Below, piece after piece: positions 5,968 through 17,195 of a stretch of 22,856 nucleotides of DNA. The notes under the pieces were generated by a model. That model was not told the origin of the DNA and did not search any database. It was given only the letters and a program-made list of their open reading frames with translations. Source of the stretch: a virus. Each line of letters begins with the position of its first letter. Positions within the stretch are counted from its first letter, which is position 1. The position numbers were made by a program, and so were the translations under genes. The stretch is taken from positions 1 through 22,856 of IMG/VR virus record IMGVR_UViG_3300000553_003571. One strand, 5' to 3'.

Positions 5968-6423
5968 TTAAAATGCTCTTATAGGTCGTACCCTATATAA
6001 TTGTTCTTTACCACCTAACTCACTTTGAGTGCCATTTCCAAAAAATTGTAGCCAAGCAGTTTCCGGAGTATATTCAGTTGAACTCCAATAATTATCAAGT
6101 GCTGAAAAATTTCCAATAACACTCTTTTGTAAAAACATTTGATTCAATTCATCCTTTGAAGGCAAAAACCAATCAGAATATCCATTCAATATTAGATTAT
6201 AACAAGCATCTGCTGCAATCATAGTATTACCTGTACAACCACTAACAATTAACATTGTATTTGTTAATCCAGAACCTATTACAGTTGATACACAACCAAT
6301 TCCAACTCTTGAGCAACCCCAATATAACGGAAATCTAAAATCCTCAGTTGCAGCTATCAATCCACCAGTTGCACCGGTATAAAAAACTGTACCACCACTT
6401 ACACTATCACCAATATTTGCCAT
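5968..6423 (-). CDS. DUF1566 (Lcl C-terminal-like) protein, probable virion receptor-binding protein
   Basis: This 151-residue protein begins ANIGDSVSGGTVFYTG and carries the DUF1566 signature: GYSDWFLPSKDELNQMF (about 101-117), YWSSTEY (132-138) and the end YRVRPIRAF. The domain has a C-type-lectin-like fold and is common in phage tail tips and surface adhesins. The start MANIGDxVxGGTVFY is typical of short phage versions. It is the last gene of the minus-strand block, close to the terminator, downstream of tail-type genes, so a host-binding role is likely. DUF1566 domains can be targets of diversity-generating retroelements, but no reverse transcriptase is seen here. Confidence 0.8.
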   Translation of the reverse strand: MANIGDSVSGGTVFYTGATGGLIAATEDFRFPLYWGCSRVGIGCVSTVIGSGLTNTMLIVSGCTGNTMIAADACYNLILNGYSDWFLPSKDELNQMFLQKSVIGNFSALDNYWSSTEYTPETAWLQFFGNGTQSELGGKEQLYRVRPIRAF

Positions 6424-6926: not shown

Positions 6927-7283
6927 TTATAAATTATATTTATCTGCTTCTAACATTGCAACAAGAAAATCATATGCATCTTCTAAAATATCAGTTTCAT
7001 ATAATATATCTAAATCTTTAATGAGTAAAGTACCTTCATCCTCTTCATCTTCAAATCTATTATATCCTACACTATATTTATATCTTAATATAAGATCAAT
7101 TATTTCATCTCCGAGTTTAGAAATTTCACCATATTTCACAACTTCCCAAACATATATATTTTCTTCTTCTTTCCTCGCATCATCAACAATATATTTTTTA
7201 TAAATTTTTTTCTTTTTCTGCCGGTAACGGTTAATAGCCATACTCTGCCATGTGTGTATTTCAAATAATTTAAGATATTTCAT
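6927..7283 (-). CDS. Tagged small acidic protein (MK..LFE start, KYNL end)
   Basis: A 118-residue protein of unknown function. The first residues, MKYLKLFEIHTW, follow the MK....F.E pattern of T4 capsid-targeting sequences, and it ends ADKYNL, a C-terminus shared with three other proteins here. Between them lies a basic stretch (RQKKKKIYKKY) and an acidic middle with EDEEDEG. It is translationally coupled to the preceding gene (TAATG, sharing one base). Delivery into the phage head is inferred from the N-terminus alone; cleavage after LFE would fit the T4 protease rule. Confidence 0.6.
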   Translation of the reverse strand: MKYLKLFEIHTWQSMAINRYRQKKKKIYKKYIVDDARKEEENIYVWEVVKYGEISKLGDEIIDLILRYKYSVGYNRFEDEEDEGTLLIKDLDILYETDILEDAYDFLVAMLEADKYNL

Positions 7284-7486: not shown

Positions 7487-7539
7487 TAATTTAATTTACT
7501 TTTTTTTATTTCACTTTCAACTCGATTTTGTCTTTTCAT
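7486..7539 (-). CDS. Possible 17-residue coupling peptide
   Basis: A minimal frame reading MKRQNRVESEIKKSKLN. Its ATG overlaps the TGA of the vWA gene (ATGA), and its TAG overlaps the GTG of the next gene (TAGTG). This double coupling suggests that it carries ribosomes across an otherwise non-coding 49-base gap. It may have no function as a peptide. Confidence 0.25.
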   Translation of the reverse strand: MKRQNRVESEIKKSKLN

Positions 7540-8102
7540 AAATTATATTTTTGTGCTGCTTTTTTTAATTCATATTCTTCTGGCGTTATATCTCTTGGTC
7601 TGTAAAAATGATCAAGTGATTCTAAATCATTTATAAAAACCGAAATACCATGATAAGTGTCCTTTGCATGTAAGACATTTCGAAATCCATTATTAATAAG
7701 TATCGGCTCCTTTTCGGTACATAAAATTGCAATATCATTTGGTAATTTTTTTACATCAATTTCAATATAACCATCTGTAAACAACAAAATATCTCCTTGA
7801 AGTTTATTTTTAATGATATAATCTATTCCTGCTTGTATAGTTCCACCATCTTGAGAAATTTTTCCTTGTTGTATCCTTTTAATTAAAGAATCTAAAGATA
7901 TATTATTTAAAACTTCATCAACTTGATTGCTACACAAAATAGCAATAAATTTATCGGATAAATAAAAATTTATATTATCGATCATTTTTTTTAAAGTTGA
8001 CACAAAAGAAGCAGATGAATCGATTAAAAATATCTTATTTTTAACATCATTTTGATAAATATCCTTGTGATTTACTTCTTCAAAAGTTCTTATATGTTTC
8101 AT
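7536..8102 (-). CDS. von Willebrand factor A (vWA)-like protein with CTS-like start and KYNL end
   Basis: This 188-residue protein is a single vWA domain with an intact metal-ion site: DSSAS (28-32, D-x-S-x-S), GGT (86-88) and TDG (109-111). Such domains bind a divalent metal and a protein partner. The N-terminus MKHIRTFEEVNHKD resembles a T4 capsid-targeting sequence, and the protein ends AAQKYNL. It lies 8 bases downstream of the LNEV-repeat gene in the same operon. A role in assembling or regulating a multi-protein complex is likely from the fold; packaging in the head is inferred. The partner may be among the tagged neighbours. Confidence 0.75.
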   Translation of the reverse strand: MKHIRTFEEVNHKDIYQNDVKNKIFLIDSSASFVSTLKKMIDNINFYLSDKFIAILCSNQVDEVLNNISLDSLIKRIQQGKISQDGGTIQAGIDYIIKNKLQGDILLFTDGYIEIDVKKLPNDIAILCTEKEPILINNGFRNVLHAKDTYHGISVFINDLESLDHFYRPRDITPEEYELKKAAQKYNL

Positions 8103-8667: not shown

Positions 8668-9340
8668 ATTTTAATTTGAAAGTTTTAATAACATTTAAAA
8701 GTTCTTTTACACTTCTAATTTCACCTTTCATTATTTTTGTTTCAATTATATCGTAAGGTATATTTTCTGAAAAACTATTCAAAATAGAAACTAGTTTTTT
8801 AATTGGTAGCACATCATCACTATGATAATCATAATATCTATAAATTGAATAAACATTTGACTTTTTTTGAAAACTGCCATCATAAATTACATAAGTCTTA
8901 ATAATTTTAGAACCATATTTTTTAAGATTTTTTTCTATTTCTTCTTGTGTTGAACCTGAATAATAACTATCGTCCAATAAAACAAAATCCTTGTTATACA
9001 TATCATCTTCTTTACCTTGTATAACTTGAAATGTTCTATTTTTTATAGAGGATCTTAATGAACCTGTAATGTGAATAACTGTACCATTAATTTTAGTTTT
9101 ACCAGTTTTTATTAAATTATAAACCCAATCACCAAAATTACCACTTAAAATTAAATTAAAATTTTTACCCTGCTCATGATATATCACATTTATAAGATTT
9201 AAAATCAAATCAGAATTTTTTGGATTTCTGATAAATTCATCAATTTTATCAAAAAAACTAACTCCACCTTCTGATTTCTTTTTCTTCAAATCATTGACAA
9301 CATCTATAATCTTATTCTTATCTTTTGCTAATAAATCCAT
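8651..9340 (-). CDS. Phosphoribosyltransferase-like protein, 3' end replaced by transposon end
   Basis: A 229-residue protein with a type I PRTase core. The PRPP-binding loop is DFVLLDDSYYSGST (118-131), preceded by strands FNLILSGNFGDW (61-72) and TVIHITGSL (87-95). PRTases of this fold make or break N-glycosidic bonds with PRPP; the substrate cannot be told. It starts 8 bases after the radical SAM gene. The last residues (STLKM) and stop are encoded by the solo left end at 8630-8667, so the original C-terminus is probably lost, perhaps including a KYNL end like its neighbours. The core motifs are intact, so it may still be active. Confidence 0.7.
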   Translation of the reverse strand: MDLLAKDKNKIIDVVNDLKKKKSEGGVSFFDKIDEFIRNPKNSDLILNLINVIYHEQGKNFNLILSGNFGDWVYNLIKTGKTKINGTVIHITGSLRSSIKNRTFQVIQGKEDDMYNKDFVLLDDSYYSGSTQEEIEKNLKKYGSKIIKTYVIYDGSFQKKSNVYSIYRYYDYHSDDVLPIKKLVSILNSFSENIPYDIIETKIMKGEIRSVKELLNVIKTFKLKSTLKM

Positions 9341-9348
9341 ATTACATT

Positions 9349-10629
9349 TTATAAATTATATTTTTTTACATCTCTTATAAAAAGTAATTCATCTAAAAAT
9401 TCATCTTTTCTAGCGTCAGGTATAGATACAATAATATACTCATCCTTCAATCTTTGTTTAATCTTAAAATTTTTAGATAATTTACGGTATTCTTTTTTAG
9501 TGATTTTTGCAATTGCTATAGGACTTTCTTTTTTCAAATCACTTTTTAAAAAAACTTCATAAGGACCATCTTCATTATAAATTGAAGGACCACATCCATA
9601 ACTCCCACCGCAACCTTCAACTGTACTATGACCACAACCATCACCACAACCATCACTAAAACCTGAATTTGAATCATCTGAACCACAACCTTCACTAAAA
9701 CCTGAATTTGAATCATCTGAACCACAACCACCTCCATCACTAGAACCACCACATTCAAAAATACCTCTAATAAGACTTTCATTTATTCTATTATAATCAA
9801 CTTTGAGTTTACCTTTCCAATCTTTGGTTACATCACCATTTTCATTAACAATTAATTCATAAATTGTTCCACCTAATTCCTTAGATGGCTCTTCTAATGA
9901 GGCTTTCCAAGAAACTTTTATTCCACCAATTAATTGATTCTTAGTACGACAAACTGGACAATGATACTCACTTGATTTATAACTTTCATAAGCTTTTTCA
10001 ACCTCTGTCGGTTTTAAATCTCCGTGAGGTTTTCTAAAAAATACTTGTGATGCTCCACATTCTTTTGCAAATTGAAGATAATTCTCAATTTCATTTTTAG
10101 TATTTAAATGTTCATTCAAAACAGCACTAAAAGTAACATCAATGCCAACTTTATTTAATTCATTGGAAACTAATTTCAATTCGTCTTTTGTGAGCATTTT
10201 AGCCTTAAAAATAGAATCGTTAATCATATCATCAAAATGATGTCTTGAAATATTAACGTGATCAATTTTACCTTCCAATTTAGACACATAATCAATAAGT
10301 TTAGCACCATTTGAAGTTAAAACGGTATGTTTAAAAACTTTTTTATCAATAAAATTAAGAATACTTTCAAGATGAGGACTTAATGTTGGTTCACCTCCTG
10401 TAAGACTTAGTTGATAGAATTGTACCGGCAAATTACTTAAAATATTATTTAATTTTTCTAAATAATTATTACATGGTGTTGATTTTTTCCAAAAACAAAA
10501 ATCACATTTACCATTACAGCCACCTGGTACAACAATAGATAAATTTGGATTTAGAATTGTTGTTTCAAAAATCTTTTCTTCATTGATTTTTGATTCTTTT
10601 ACATAATTTTCATATCGTTTTAACATCAT
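9349..10629 (-). CDS. Radical SAM protein with Gly/Cys/Ser-rich insert, CTS-like start and KYNL end
   Basis: A protein of 426 residues. The N-terminus MLKRYENYVKESKINEE resembles a capsid-targeting sequence with an INE cut site. The radical SAM core has CxxxCxxC (C38, C42, C45 in GGCNGKCDFCFW) and GGEP (78-81), with SRHHFDD near 128, and should reduce S-adenosylmethionine to a 5'-deoxyadenosyl radical. A CPVC motif follows at about 223-226. Residues about 292-346 form an insert with seven Cys and many Gly, Ser and Asp, including a 13-residue tandem repeat (SDDSNSGF). A basic domain follows, ending VKKYNL. The insert could bind extra Fe-S clusters or be a built-in substrate resembling a RiPP core. 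The substrate is unknown. Radical SAM fold sure. Confidence 0.85.
   Translation of the reverse strand: MMLKRYENYVKESKINEEKIFETTILNPNLSIVVPGGCNGKCDFCFWKKSTPCNNYLEKLNNILSNLPVQFYQLSLTGGEPTLSPHLESILNFIDKKVFKHTVLTSNGAKLIDYVSKLEGKIDHVNISRHHFDDMINDSIFKAKMLTKDELKLVSNELNKVGIDVTFSAVLNEHLNTKNEIENYLQFAKECGASQVFFRKPHGDLKPTEVEKAYESYKSSEYHCPVCRTKNQLIGGIKVSWKASLEEPSKELGGTIYELIVNENGDVTKDWKGKLKVDYNRINESLIRGIFECGGSSDGGGCGSDDSNSGFSEGCGSDDSNSGFSDGCGDGCGHSTVEGCGGSYGCGPSIYNEDGPYEVFLKSDLKKESPIAIAKITKKEYRKLSKNFKIKQRLKDEYIIVSIPDARKDEFLDELLFIRDVKKYNL
9653..9729 (-). repeat. Tandem duplication in the Gly/Cys insert
   Basis: Two identical 38-base copies, 9653-9690 and 9692-9729, with a 39-base period encode two 13-residue units S-[DE]-G-C-G-S-D-D-S-N-S-G-F. 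The exact DNA identity implies a recent in-frame duplication. Confidence 0.85.
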
Positions 10630-10675: not shown

Positions 10676-11506
10676 TTAAAAATTCTTAATTATATTATAA
10701 ACCTGATCTCCAAAATAAGTTGCACTTGTTGCATCAAAATGATAAGCATCAAGCAAAGTTCCTGCTGACATATTTACACAATGCGCATTTACATCTTCTG
10801 ACGCTATTTGAAATTGAGCAGCTTCCACAGTAGCATTATATTGTGCAGAAGCACGAGATATACTTCCATACACTATCGGTAAAGTTGAATTTCCAACTAT
10901 TGTATTTCGTATATAATAAATAACATCTTTAAAATTTTGATAATAAGCATCCGCTGCTGTTTGTGGTAAATAATCACCTTCACCTTGATGCCATAGTATT
11001 GATTTGACATTTAATGTTTTTCCAATACTTGTAGCATAAGTGACTGCCGATTGATAATACCATTGTAATTCTTGAAGTAAAACATTTCCAGTGGTGTATG
11101 TTGTTATGCCTGTAAAATCAGTATTCCAACATCCCTTCGTATCACCAGATTGAATATATATCGCAGTTCCACCTTTAGTTCTTTTGACCATATATACTGT
11201 TGTATTCTTACCCACATAATAATCATGCATTGCAATCATATCAAATGCCCATGTTGTCTGTGTCCATACATCAGCACCTGAATTAACTCCCAATTTAAAA
11301 TCGTTGAATTGATGTGGCGTTAAATTAATATTCCACATTTTAACTCCTGTTACAGTTGGATTAGATTGATTTAACCAAGATGGTGCATTTACCAATAATA
11401 CTCTACCATCAGCATTAGATTGACCAGCAATCAAAAATGTTGTTAAATTATTTGTAGGTGGTGTAACTACTTTACCTATACTATCTAAAAATCCATATAA
11501 TTGCAT
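10676..11506 (-). CDS. SGNH/sialate O-acetylesterase-like esterase, tail-associated
   Basis: A 276-residue protein with the esterase blocks of the SASA/CE6-like family: AGQSNADGR (27-35) with nucleophile Ser30, WHQGEGD (172-178) forming the oxyanion block, and DAYHFD (253-258) supplying Asp253 and His256. Such enzymes remove acetyl groups from polysaccharides. No signal peptide is seen; the short leader MQLYGFLDSIGKV is more like a virion attachment segment. It lies 14 bases after a tail-fibre-like gene, so it probably acts from the virion on host capsule or O-antigen during adsorption. The catalytic triad looks complete. The substrate is not known. Confidence 0.8.
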   Translation of the reverse strand: MQLYGFLDSIGKVVTPPTNNLTTFLIAGQSNADGRVLLVNAPSWLNQSNPTVTGVKMWNINLTPHQFNDFKLGVNSGADVWTQTTWAFDMIAMHDYYVGKNTTVYMVKRTKGGTAIYIQSGDTKGCWNTDFTGITTYTTGNVLLQELQWYYQSAVTYATSIGKTLNVKSILWHQGEGDYLPQTAADAYYQNFKDVIYYIRNTIVGNSTLPIVYGSISRASAQYNATVEAAQFQIASEDVNAHCVNMSAGTLLDAYHFDATSATYFGDQVYNIIKNF

Positions 11507-13785: not shown

Positions 13786-14151
13786 TTACAAATTGTATTT
13801 TATAGCATCAAGATAATCAGATAATGATTCAGTATTTAATTGATAATCTATTATCATACAGATGTTTCCGTAATAATTTTCTGCCTTGATGGTAAATTTT
13901 TCTACAACTAAAAAATCTTTTAAATAATTCAAAAGTTTCAGCATTTGTTTAGATGAAGGTTCAGTTAAAATTTTAAATACAAAGATAAGACTAGTAGATT
14001 TGTCGCCAGCAGGTCCACGGCACCACCTGGGTACAAGTCTATGATCTTCCATTGTAAAATTACTAAAAAATTTTTCTGCCATAATTTGAGAAAAATTCTT
14101 AATTGTAATATTTTCAGATTCAAATAGTTCCGTAAAATGATGTACTTTCAT
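13786..14151 (-). CDS. Tagged small protein (MK..FTELFE start, KYNL end)
   Basis: A 121-residue protein of unknown function. It begins MKVHHFTELFESENI, fitting the capsid-targeting pattern with a possible cut after LFE, and ends DAIKYNL. Its KYNL is coded AAA TAC AAT TTG, not the AAA TAT AAT TTA used by the other tagged genes, so the ending is conserved as protein. The body looks alpha/beta, with RLVPRWCRGPAGDKSTS (about 38-54) and an FVFKILTEPS strand. It lies downstream of the DHH gene with a 39-base gap. Confidence 0.6.
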   Translation of the reverse strand: MKVHHFTELFESENITIKNFSQIMAEKFFSNFTMEDHRLVPRWCRGPAGDKSTSLIFVFKILTEPSSKQMLKLLNYLKDFLVVEKFTIKAENYYGNICMIIDYQLNTESLSDYLDAIKYNL

Positions 14152-14190: not shown

Positions 14191-15771
14191 TCATTTCTTT
14201 AAAGACCAGATTTCAACTTTTTCTTTAGATTCAGGTTTAATATATTTACCATCCACCATGTTAAACATAATTTTAAAAATTCTTTTGAATTCTTTTCTTT
14301 GTGATTTACGAACTTCAGTTGCTTCACTATCATATAATTTATCCAAACCGAATTTGTCAGTTATCATTTTAAATAATTCGGTATCTTCAATTGGTTTATT
14401 TTCTTTAAAATATAAACTAGTTAAATCAGTAGGTTTAATAACATGATCTTCAATTTCTTCAAAATGAGTTTGTAACCAAATTTCATAGATTTTTTTCATC
14501 GTAGAATCCTTAAATTTAGATGATAAATTTTTTCTTTCTAGAAAATCACCATAACCATTAATTACAATGTAATTCAAAATTTCTCTTTCGTCACTTTCAG
14601 TTCTTGCTTCATCTTCAGTTCTAACATCTTCGATATCCATCAATTTCTTATTGACTTCTTCTGGTTTTACCGTAATAGGACCGCCTTCGTCTTCATTCCA
14701 AGGCATTGTTAATCCCCATTTTACACCAGAAATATCATTGATAATTTTATTTTTGAACATATCTAAAAACCTAACACCATCATATGCCTTTATGTGACAT
14801 TTTCCAAAAATATTTGAAATCGAACCAATTCCATAATGTCCACCTGCCTTTGTTCTTTCGTCTTGATATCCTAAATATTTTTCAAAATTCTTAACTAAAC
14901 CTTCTGTATATTTTCCTAAATCACTAATTGGATTACCATCTTTATCTTTAGGTAGATCTTCTTCTTTCATATCTTTGATTTTTGATCTTAAATCAGCAAC
15001 TTGTAAAGTATTACCGTATTGTAAAAGAACAAAATTTAATTTTGGATCATCAGGAACAATACCTTTTTCTAAATCTTGACTGAAAATTGCTTTTGCTCTC
15101 AGAGCATTTGCCCAAGTACCTGATGGAACATACATTAAATTACCAATAATTTGATAAACACCTGGTTTTAATTGAAATTTGTGATTTTCTGGTTGATCTG
15201 GAATAATTCTACCATCGTCATCATATTCTTTAAATGGTAAATCATTTGCAAAAGCGTTCCAAAAATCCTCTTGTTCTTCAAATCTAATTTTATGACCATT
15301 TTCGTCAAATCCTTGATTTTTATATCCTGAACCTTTGGTCTTATGTTTCATCATTGCTAATCTTATTTTAGCATCATCAACAAATCCAGGTTCATCACCA
15401 GTTTTCCAGTTAGGATTATTTTTCGGATAAAAAATCTTAAATAAACGATAAATATTATAAATTGATGGATGTTCACAGCCATTGACAACTTCTATAAAAG
15501 TTTTATAATCTGAACGTTTTAATAATTGATTCATTGAAGCGGCAAATTTTAATTTTGCTTTAGGATCTTTTTTTATTTGATTTAAATCAAAATCTAAAAT
15601 TCCTTTAATATCCACATCATAATCAGCATATTTTGCCGAATCTATCATATCAATCCAATCTTTAGTGTCATTTGAAAATGGTACACCTAATTGAGTTGCA
15701 ATACCTTCTGCTGCTGAACCTGTTTTAGTTTTAATTGCATATCCTTTTTGAGTGAGTACTTCATTCCTCGG
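14191..15771 (-). CDS. DHH/DHHA1 phosphoesterase, C-terminal part (after frameshift)
   Basis: This frame continues the protein begun at 16111. From the junction it reads NEVLTQKGYAIKTKTGSAAE and SAKYADYDVD, matching the late DHH motifs (S-A-A-E, then an Asp), and later KAGGHYGIGSIS, the GGH signature of DHHA1 domains. An internal ATG at 15648 gives 485 residues but would omit the S-A-A-E motif, so it is not a natural start. The C-terminal 200 residues are charged, with no recognised domain. The combined enzyme would be about 640 residues. DHH/DHHA1 proteins are Mn-dependent phosphoesterases acting on oligonucleotides or nucleotide messengers. It is functional only if the frame is bypassed or the break is an error. 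Confidence 0.7.
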   Translation of the reverse strand, partial: PRNEVLTQKGYAIKTKTGSAAEGIATQLGVPFSNDTKDWIDMIDSAKYADYDVDIKGILDFDLNQIKKDPKAKLKFAASMNQLLKRSDYKTFIEVVNGCEHPSIYNIYRLFKIFYPKNNPNWKTGDEPGFVDDAKIRLAMMKHKTKGSGYKNQGFDENGHKIRFEEQEDFWNAFANDLPFKEYDDDGRIIPDQPENHKFQLKPGVYQIIGNLMYVPSGTWANALRAKAIFSQDLEKGIVPDDPKLNFVLLQYGNTLQVADLRSKIKDMKEEDLPKDKDGNPISDLGKYTEGLVKNFEKYLGYQDERTKAGGHYGIGSISNIFGKCHIKAYDGVRFLDMFKNKIINDISGVKWGLTMPWNEDEGGPITVKPEEVNKKLMDIEDVRTEDEARTESDEREILNYIVINGYGDFLERKNLSSKFKDSTMKKIYEIWLQTHFEEIEDHVIKPTDLTSLYFKENKPIEDTELFKMITDKFGLDKLYDSEATEVRKSQRKEFKRIFKIMFNMVDGKYIKPESKEKVEIWSLKK

Positions 15772-16111
15772 AAAATTGGCCGTGATGATCTACATAATAA
15801 TCCACGCCTTTACCATCTGGTAATTGTATATTTTCCGCAAAATCTAATGCAATAGTAATCAATCTTGAATCAATTTTAAATCCTTGCCATCCCTCTTGAT
15901 AATTTATAAGTCCAATTTGCTTGATTTTAAATCCATGTTCTTTCAAATAATTTTTCATTATAACTCCAGAACAAATTCCATCTAAGTCATCGTGTATTAT
16001 AAGACACACATCTTTTCCTGATTTACCTCTTTTCTTCCAATATTCCTCACTATTAGGAAGTCTTGGTGCAGACTCATTTAACACCTCTAAATATTCATTA
16101 AAATTTTTCAT
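15761..16111 (-). CDS. DHH phosphoesterase, N-terminal part, CTS-like start
   Basis: A 116-residue frame with the DHH metal motifs: HDDLDGICSG (about 40-49), ALDF (89-92) and DHH (108-110). It stops six residues after DHH, where the family always continues. The N-terminus MKNFNEYLEVLNESAPRL is the closest match here to a T4 capsid-targeting sequence, with a cut site after LNE. Removing one A from the A-run at 15772-15775 (T on the coding strand) joins it to the downstream frame. Alternatively, a +1 ribosomal shift at GAA-TGA would do so. Its start overlaps the homing endonuclease gene by 14 bases. Confidence 0.75.
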   Translation of the reverse strand: MKNFNEYLEVLNESAPRLPNSEEYWKKRGKSGKDVCLIIHDDLDGICSGVIMKNYLKEHGFKIKQIGLINYQEGWQGFKIDSRLITIALDFAENIQLPDGKGVDYYVDHHGQFSEE

Positions 16112-17195
16112 AAATTTCTTTTAATTTTTCTTCTATGTTTTCAACATAACTTATTCGTAATATTTTAATATTATTATCTTTACAATAAAGATTTTTAATC
16201 TCATCATGTTTTTTTGTAATAATAAAATTAGGCAATCCACCAAACCATTCTATTGGTTCGAAATGCTGTTTACCATCATACTCAATACATGTGTTAATAT
16301 CTGGTATATAAAAATCAAATGCTAATTTATTTTTATCTTTGCAATTTTCAAAAGTCTTTTGTTTATCAAACTTTATATTTGAATTTTTTAAAATTCTGGT
16401 TATTTTTTTTTCACCTTTACTTTCACTACAAATAGGACAACCTCTACCAAGTAAATGAGTTCTTGGTGTTTGTTCAAAAATACCATGTTCAGGACAAACA
16501 ATTTTTATTTTAGTTTTACAATTTATATAATCTACTAAAGAATAGTTATATTTATTATCATGTATAGAATTACTTCTATCAATAAAATCTTCTATTTTTA
16601 ATTTTTTACTATTATCTGCACATTTTTTACAACCGCCATCACCAAGATAATGCACATTCGGTGTTATTTCAAATTCACCATGTTTCTTACAAATCAATTT
16701 CACATTAGTTTTGCTGTTTATATAATCTACTAAAGAATACTCATATTTATCTCCGTGAATTTCTTTAGATTTTAAAATAAATTCATCTGTGTTTCTTTTT
16801 TTTGTTCCTGAGCAAATTTGACAACCAGATCCATTAAAATGTTCACTTGGTGTTTGTAAAAACATTCCATGTTCAAAACATATAATTTTAACTTTTTTAG
16901 TAATATTTTCATATTCTACTAAAGAATAATCATATTTATCACCGTGTATTTTTTTTGATTTTTCAATAAACATTCTAGTTGTCAATCTCTTTAATCCTGA
17001 GCAATCTAGACAACCATGTAACATTAAATGAGAATTTGGTGATTGTTCAAAAATACCATGTTCAGGACAAATAATTTTAACTTTAATTTTATTTCCATTA
17101 TATTCAACCAACGAATAATCATATTTATTACCATGAATCTGTTTTGCCTTGAAAATAAATTCCTCAGTAGTTAATTTGACATTATTTTTACCCAC
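16098..17195 (-). CDS. Homing-type endonuclease: four zinc-ribbon repeats plus VSR/PD-(D/E)xK nuclease
   Basis: A 365-residue protein starting at GTG 17195 immediately after the preceding stop. Four repeats of about 63 residues (10-66, 72-129, 135-193, 200-257) each read F-I-x-K-S-x-x-I-H-G-x-K-Y-x-Y-S-L-V and close with C-x-x-H-G and C-x-x-C, likely zinc-ribbon DNA-binding units. The C-terminal domain (264-365) has LAFDFYIPD (D294), CIEYDGKQHF (E305, K309) and a final helix, as in VSR-like/DUF559 nucleases of phage homing endonucleases. It probably cuts a site in related genomes lacking it. It overlaps the start of the DHH gene. The family is confident; the target site is unknown. Confidence 0.8.
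   Translation of the reverse strand: MGKNNVKLTTEEFIFKAKQIHGNKYDYSLVEYNGNKIKVKIICPEHGIFEQSPNSHLMLHGCLDCSGLKRLTTRMFIEKSKKIHGDKYDYSLVEYENITKKVKIICFEHGMFLQTPSEHFNGSGCQICSGTKKRNTDEFILKSKEIHGDKYEYSLVDYINSKTNVKLICKKHGEFEITPNVHYLGDGGCKKCADNSKKLKIEDFIDRSNSIHDNKYNYSLVDYINCKTKIKIVCPEHGIFEQTPRTHLLGRGCPICSESKGEKKITRILKNSNIKFDKQKTFENCKDKNKLAFDFYIPDINTCIEYDGKQHFEPIEWFGGLPNFIITKKHDEIKNLYCKDNNIKILRISYVENIEEKLKEIYEKF

Follow-up and report, generated by a model that had tools for sequence, protein, structure and literature searches.

The window, by which we mean the whole stretch of DNA analysed here (22,856 bases long, a virus record from IMG/VR), encodes a protein of 426 residues on its minus strand (9349–10629) that consists of a catalytic core, a Cys-rich strip, and an extra C-terminal domain. 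The initial annotation had read it as a radical SAM enzyme, and both defining features of that superfamily are present: the Pfam Radical_SAM domain (E = 1.5e-11) and the CxxxCxxC motif of the SAM-binding cluster (residues 38–45 with Cys38, Cys42, and Cys45; 10495–10518, minus strand), which all 30 aligned relatives share. Near the end of the core lies a CPVC motif (residues 224–227; 9949–9960, minus strand), whose Cys224 is kept in 30/30 and Cys227 in 29/30 aligned relatives, with both present in 29/30. Residues 1–21 (10567–10629, minus strand) form a lineage-specific N-terminal extension, longer than the corresponding part of most relatives.

The strip spans residues 293–346 (9592–9753, minus strand) and is rich in Gly, Ser, Asp, and Cys. 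Its seven cysteines are at positions 293, 302, 315, 328, 332, 340, and 346, and the 57 residues from 291 to 347 include 19 Gly, 12 Ser, 7 Cys, and 7 Asp. The Cys-rich insert of the initial annotation is therefore real, and so is the 13-residue tandem duplication described there, with a period of 39 nt (window 9643–9730), although it had been called perfect and is not. Copy 1 (residues 301–313; 9691–9729, minus strand) ends in FSE and copy 2 (residues 314–326; 9652–9690, minus strand) in FSD, the two being identical at 12 of 13 residues. The clustering of cysteines alone is only mildly unusual: when the protein was shuffled 10,000 times, 316 shuffles placed 7 of its 14 Cys within 57 residues. 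It is the recurrence of the strip in relatives that raises it above chance. Structure prediction with AlphaFold2, which had been proposed as a check, gave pLDDT values above 90 across most of the core and below 50 at residues 285–366, so that the strip is predicted to be disordered. Values were middling at about residues 371–415, a lineage-specific beta-alpha-beta-beta-alpha domain (9385–9519, minus strand) that is followed by a C-terminal KYNL. A search for phage relatives of this domain gave a best E of 0.3, and the domain folded alone had no PDB match at E ≤ 0.001. We propose that the strip is internal in the window protein through the addition of this small domain behind it.

The window probably derives from a large tailed phage, because the protein encoded at 14191–15648 shows 40% identity over 343 residues to a protein of the 735-kb huge phage LR756501. 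Near the enzyme are a SASA-type esterase (10676–11506) and a protein with an Lcl C-terminal domain (5968–6423), both possibly virion or fibre related. The protein encoded at 16098–17195 is made up of treble-clef-like units in series, with a tandem repeat of 189 bp, and relatives of this protein occur near four other family loci. Four of the 29 listed window genes, all on the minus strand (6927–7283, 7536–8102, 9349–10629, and 13786–14151), encode a KYNL C-terminus, one of them with different codons. The same four have similar MK..F/Y-like starts, and these ends may be terminal tags. In a shuffle test, the C-terminal kinship of the four proteins was not significant for most pairs; the closest pair, the enzyme and the 7536–8102 protein, had a score reached in 8 of 500 shuffles. 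An enrichment of KYNL ends in LR756501 was considered and rejected (1 match against 6 in the control).

Relatives were found only by alignment-based scans of viral contigs, and scans of these contigs with the window protein alone returned none. Near-identical copies (L085 and L086 of L006; L018, L021, L094, and L095 of L015) and broken or chimeric genes (L020, L102, and L109) were dropped, giving a family set of 31 intact, non-redundant members including the window, among the matches listed; L096 was left out of the alignment (A3) and the tree, which have 30 rows. Among the same listed matches, 24 of the 31 members have, after the catalytic core, a Gly/Ser/Cys strip containing two or more Cys, and this strip is the C-terminus in 23 of the 24, being internal only in the window. 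Five members, again among the matches listed, have a strip-less enzyme with an adjacent ORF of 26–93 residues that itself ends in a strip, and the remaining two are L008, which has no in-frame tail, and L009, which ends in a single Cys. At the downstream end of the L008 gene (5105–6046), a tail-like stretch ending in SSSCGR is seen in another reading frame. The comparison of homologues suggested with the initial annotation thus gave a recurrent strip with mostly conserved cysteines. Homologues lacking the insert without any other loss had been named there as the contrary outcome; five of the seven strip-less relatives instead have a neighbouring strip ORF.

The tails share a local pattern rather than a fixed layout. 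In 29 tails or partners (all except L008 and L009), Gly or Ser precedes 77 of the 83 Cys, compared with 35 of the 253 Cys in the cores, and Gly directly follows 57 of the 83. The last Cys lies 0–3 residues from the C-terminal end in 28/28 tails or partners other than the window. The number of cysteines ranges from 2 to 7, with two in most tails, and how they are spaced and how far they lie from the core differ greatly from tail to tail. Between sister proteins, the cysteines are mostly kept while the linkers diverge, with one or two Cys unmatched in 5 of 12 pairs. For example, the cores of L098 and L101 are 94% identical, and their tails of 141 and 81 residues are 50% identical where aligned and keep both Cys. 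In L007, one CPVC Cys is lost and two tail Cys are kept. Dulem virus 40 and several gut relatives have neither the CPxC motif nor a tail. A distant phage radical SAM protein (L022, 7238–8131) carries an N-terminal CCGGGSSCC-like segment, and two Firmicutes MAG contigs (L124 and L125) have three consecutive radical SAM-like genes, of about 221, 324, and 344 residues in L124, without Cys tails.

Fused and split strips are mutually exclusive. The split partners have 93 (L011, upstream), 65 (L012), 29 (L017), 60 (L019), and 26 (L120, a Spirochaetales MAG) residues. ORFs with a tail by our criterion account for 5 of 22 beside the seven strip-less enzymes, 0 of 63 beside the 24 strip-bearing enzymes, and 11 of 6329 elsewhere (Fisher p = 1.3e-9 for the first set against the last, the related loci not being independent). 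This criterion was fixed after the cases had been seen, and three thresholds gave p values of 2.1e-7, 1.3e-9, and 1.3e-9; it replaced an earlier, stricter one (3 of 111 adjacent ORFs, Fisher p = 0.0034). On the 30-row tree, at least four changes between the fused and split states are needed, at least two of which are forced by well-supported branches. The partners of L017 and L120 are alike in their N-terminal part and differ in their Cys ends, and they read like leader plus core. Within the L011 stretch, a similar helix-like start occurs only in the enzyme and its partner, and the start of the L019 partner is of the same kind. When 804 ORFs from 32 loci were clustered, the enzyme was the only conserved gene, the next largest clusters covering five loci; no conserved protease, transporter, immunity, or export gene was found near the enzyme at these 32 loci. 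The module therefore consists of the enzyme and its tail.

A cousin subfamily from huge phages, with about 25–32% identity to the window protein, shows a related arrangement. At 18 of 22 non-redundant cousin loci, among the matches listed and with the more distant rows (L179 on) left out of the count, the protein directly upstream ends exactly in Cys. These partners have 83–211 residues, often with an earlier Asp-Pro-Cys-Gly-like unit; the loci without one are L165, L151 (of the L165 type), L173, and L174 (broken). Cys-ending ORFs make up 17 of 18 upstream ORFs and 7 of 251 others (Fisher p = 1.8e-20; 20 of the 22 loci, related and not independent), L151 and L174 being left out and L173 and L178 having no ORF that fits the upstream rule. 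Partners at L168, L175, and L150 have one Cys within their last 45 residues. The cousin enzymes keep Cys17, Cys244, and Cys246 in 9/9 aligned sequences. Two similar tandem partners, both ending in Cys, precede the cousin enzyme in L027 (4327–4665 and 4683–5018), and an ORF of 43–69 residues with an AxAIAT..E...GAACGQL-like stretch lies downstream of it in L158, L160, L161, L164, L172, and L174. In L026, a distant radical SAM gene is followed by a small ORF (9050–9313) whose end is a Cys-rich stretch, DPCKFCSNHPSNGGSGICHC, a Cys-rich NGGSG motif not found elsewhere among the loci examined. In jumbo phages of Erwinia, Dickeya, and Yersinia, the enzyme takes a third form: it has a CPSCF-like motif, and its tail comprises 2–4 Cys units, mostly Cys-x-Phe/Tyr. 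This tail was present in all 12 loci read, of which two belong to the same phage and some are nearly the same, with 52 records matched, among the matches listed. Main-family and jumbo-phage loci that came up again in the later cousin scan entered these counts once.

The closest solved folds to the window enzyme are MoaA (Z = 19.6), tetraether synthase (18.4), SuiB (18.3), viperin (18.1), and SkfB (18.0), and the sactipeptide maturase entry 5why scores 14.0. Each of the 30 members gives a match with the MoaA, viperin, and pVip models. Nevertheless, the window protein scores 44.2 and 49.6 bits with two MoaA NCBIfam equivalog models (cut-offs of 284.05 and 325.25) and 46.2 bits with the viperin equivalog (cut-off of 180), and its QueE profile score is also far below the cut-off. 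The view that the insert is unlike a SPASM domain held up: no SPASM profile matched the window protein up to E = 10 or the 30 members in Pfam at 0.01, a search that a very divergent domain might escape. No recognised precursor-binding domain was found by profile.

We hypothesized that this family comprises phage radical SAM enzymes fused to their own peptide substrate, forming a RiPP-like module in which the Cys tail is modified in cis or in trans, and we regard the chances that this is correct as evenly balanced. The MoaA/SkfB-like barrel would cleave SAM and then act on the Gly/Ser/Cys strip, the likeliest target being at or near the Cys of the repeated [Gly/Ser]-Cys-Gly units, while the conserved CPVC pair near the active site may help to keep the strip, or a cluster, in place. 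The strip would be presented either in cis, as the C-terminal tail, or in trans, as a small protein of its own from the neighbouring gene, like a RiPP precursor and its maturase. We favour a substrate over a fixed set of ligands because the number of tail Cys is variable, the repeat in the window has expanded, and the partners are peptide-sized. That the strip is modified, by what chemistry (perhaps thioether cross-links), and to what purpose are points that we infer; likewise, the adjacent Cys-tailed ORFs may be RiPP precursors. The possible fusion of maturase and substrate raised in the initial annotation thus gains indirect support from the mutual exclusivity of fused and split forms and from the Cys retained in diverging tails. 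Taken together, the fused and split strips suggest an undescribed phage route to chemically modify its own peptide.

Several observations nevertheless count against a maturase. Each enzyme molecule would process the substrate fused to it a single time. Dedicated protease and export genes are common in RiPP systems, though not universal, and no conserved protease, transporter, or immunity gene lies nearby. There is no SPASM match or recognised precursor-binding domain, the closest fold is that of the nucleotide enzyme MoaA, and every one of the 30 members matches pVip models, though the window protein scores far below the viperin cut-off. Two-Cys tails predominate, as expected of a ligand or redox pair; L008 is tail-less in frame and L009 has one terminal Cys; and the window strip is internal, unlike that of every other fused member.

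A serious rival, which we consider possible though not probable, gives the tail a role in the workings of the enzyme itself. Its cysteines would complete, together with CPVC, an auxiliary site for a metal or for an extra Fe-S cluster, the latter an alternative already raised in the initial annotation; or its end would enter the active site as in MoaA, the tail being provided in cis or by the neighbour. We take this ligand or active-site arm seriously because CPVC is nearly invariant, most tails have exactly two Cys and so would make four with CPVC, the last Cys sits at the extreme C-terminus, and MoaA, the closest fold, needs its own tail. MoaA has a functional Gly-rich C-terminal tail, whose terminal Gly-Gly is required and inserts into the active site. 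The invariant Cys17, Cys244, and Cys246 of the cousin enzymes, which are encoded next to a Cys-ending partner, fit the same idea. However, a ligand set is hard to match with tails whose Cys number, spacing, and distance from the core differ so widely, with the repeat expansion and internal strip of the window, or with L007, which has one CPVC Cys fewer and still two tail Cys.

It is quite unlikely that the tail acts as a flexible thiol/disulfide or sulfur relay for an enzyme working on a small molecule or nucleotide. Class I and II ribonucleotide reductases with their C-terminal Cys pair and DsrC with its arm are models of such relays, and the flexible Gly/Ser-rich tails with a terminal Cys pair and the core resembling the nucleotide enzymes MoaA and viperin would suit one. 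Tails with 5–7 Cys, the single Cys at the end of the L168, L175, and L150 partners, partners of only 26–29 residues, and the lack of a conserved reductase or nucleotide gene nearby would not. A viperin- or MoaA-like nucleotide enzyme with the strip as a merely tolerated low-complexity linker is very improbable, since the family-wide model matches and the disorder of the strip are outweighed by the low window scores (44–50 against 284–325 bits for MoaA, 46 against 180 for viperin), the retention of Cys while linkers diverge, and the existence of split partners.

The initial annotation had also suggested that the enzyme might be injected, on account of a head-targeting-like start. By eye, residues 1–21 of the window enzyme resemble what we take to be a T4-type capsid-targeting start, and the N-termini of the cousin partners L153 and L162 resemble it as well. 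A strict DNA pattern for such starts matched 1, 3, and 2 places in three records and none in the controls; the two places in the 642-kb LR756502 include the L153 partner. In the window the pattern matches another gene (15761–16111) and misses the radical SAM enzyme. Delivery of the enzyme with the virion is a guess, at most a lead. The likeness to T4 internal proteins, too, is one of N-terminal starts judged by eye; the sources describe this short N-terminal capsid-targeting sequence for T4 only (PMC7697877, PMC3012670). We consider it rather unlikely that phages of many lineages share a portable module, a radical SAM enzyme plus a Cys-tail peptide on the same or a separate chain, that yields modified protein tails of a new class, and that in huge phages the tail protein is packed in the head and delivered at infection.

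Phage radical SAM enzymes are already known. RiPPs and phages are treated together in one paper (PMC11118758), an Aeromonas giant phage with eight radical SAM genes is termed highly unusual (PMC12390700), and AD1_267 is listed as a radical SAM protein (PMC6143709). The design with a fused Cys tail was not found in the literature covered, which leaves preprints and many journals outside. If the tail is modified, the gene would be a self-contained phage gene for radical-SAM peptide maturation. Such chemistry could then be studied in a simple system whose enzyme and substrate share one chain, and the product might be a phage effector of a new kind, acting after injection or inside the cell. A tail that instead serves the enzyme would amount to a new radical SAM design with a detachable cofactor or redox arm. 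Under either reading, the recurrent switches between fused and split forms open the way to a clear experiment.

Among known systems, MoaA (GTP 3',8-cyclase) is closest in fold, and the phage family differs from it by the Cys-bearing tail, the partner proteins, and scores below the cut-offs. Viperin and prokaryotic viperin share core similarity with all 30 members, although the window protein is well below the equivalog cut-off; CPVC and a Cys tail are not known to be part of viperin. The radical SAM RiPP maturases SkfB, SuiB, CteB, and AlbA, which act with precursor peptides, share the barrel fold, and a Cys-containing small protein is encoded beside the enzyme in five of the phage relatives. 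The phage family differs from these maturases in having no SPASM match, a strip that is mostly fused, a location on phage contigs, and no conserved export or protease gene. The borosin enzymes of the OphMA type are fungal, self-modifying N-methyltransferases fused to a C-terminal substrate peptide. OphMA is not a radical SAM enzyme, but it resembles the arrangement proposed here in carrying enzyme and C-terminal substrate in one chain.
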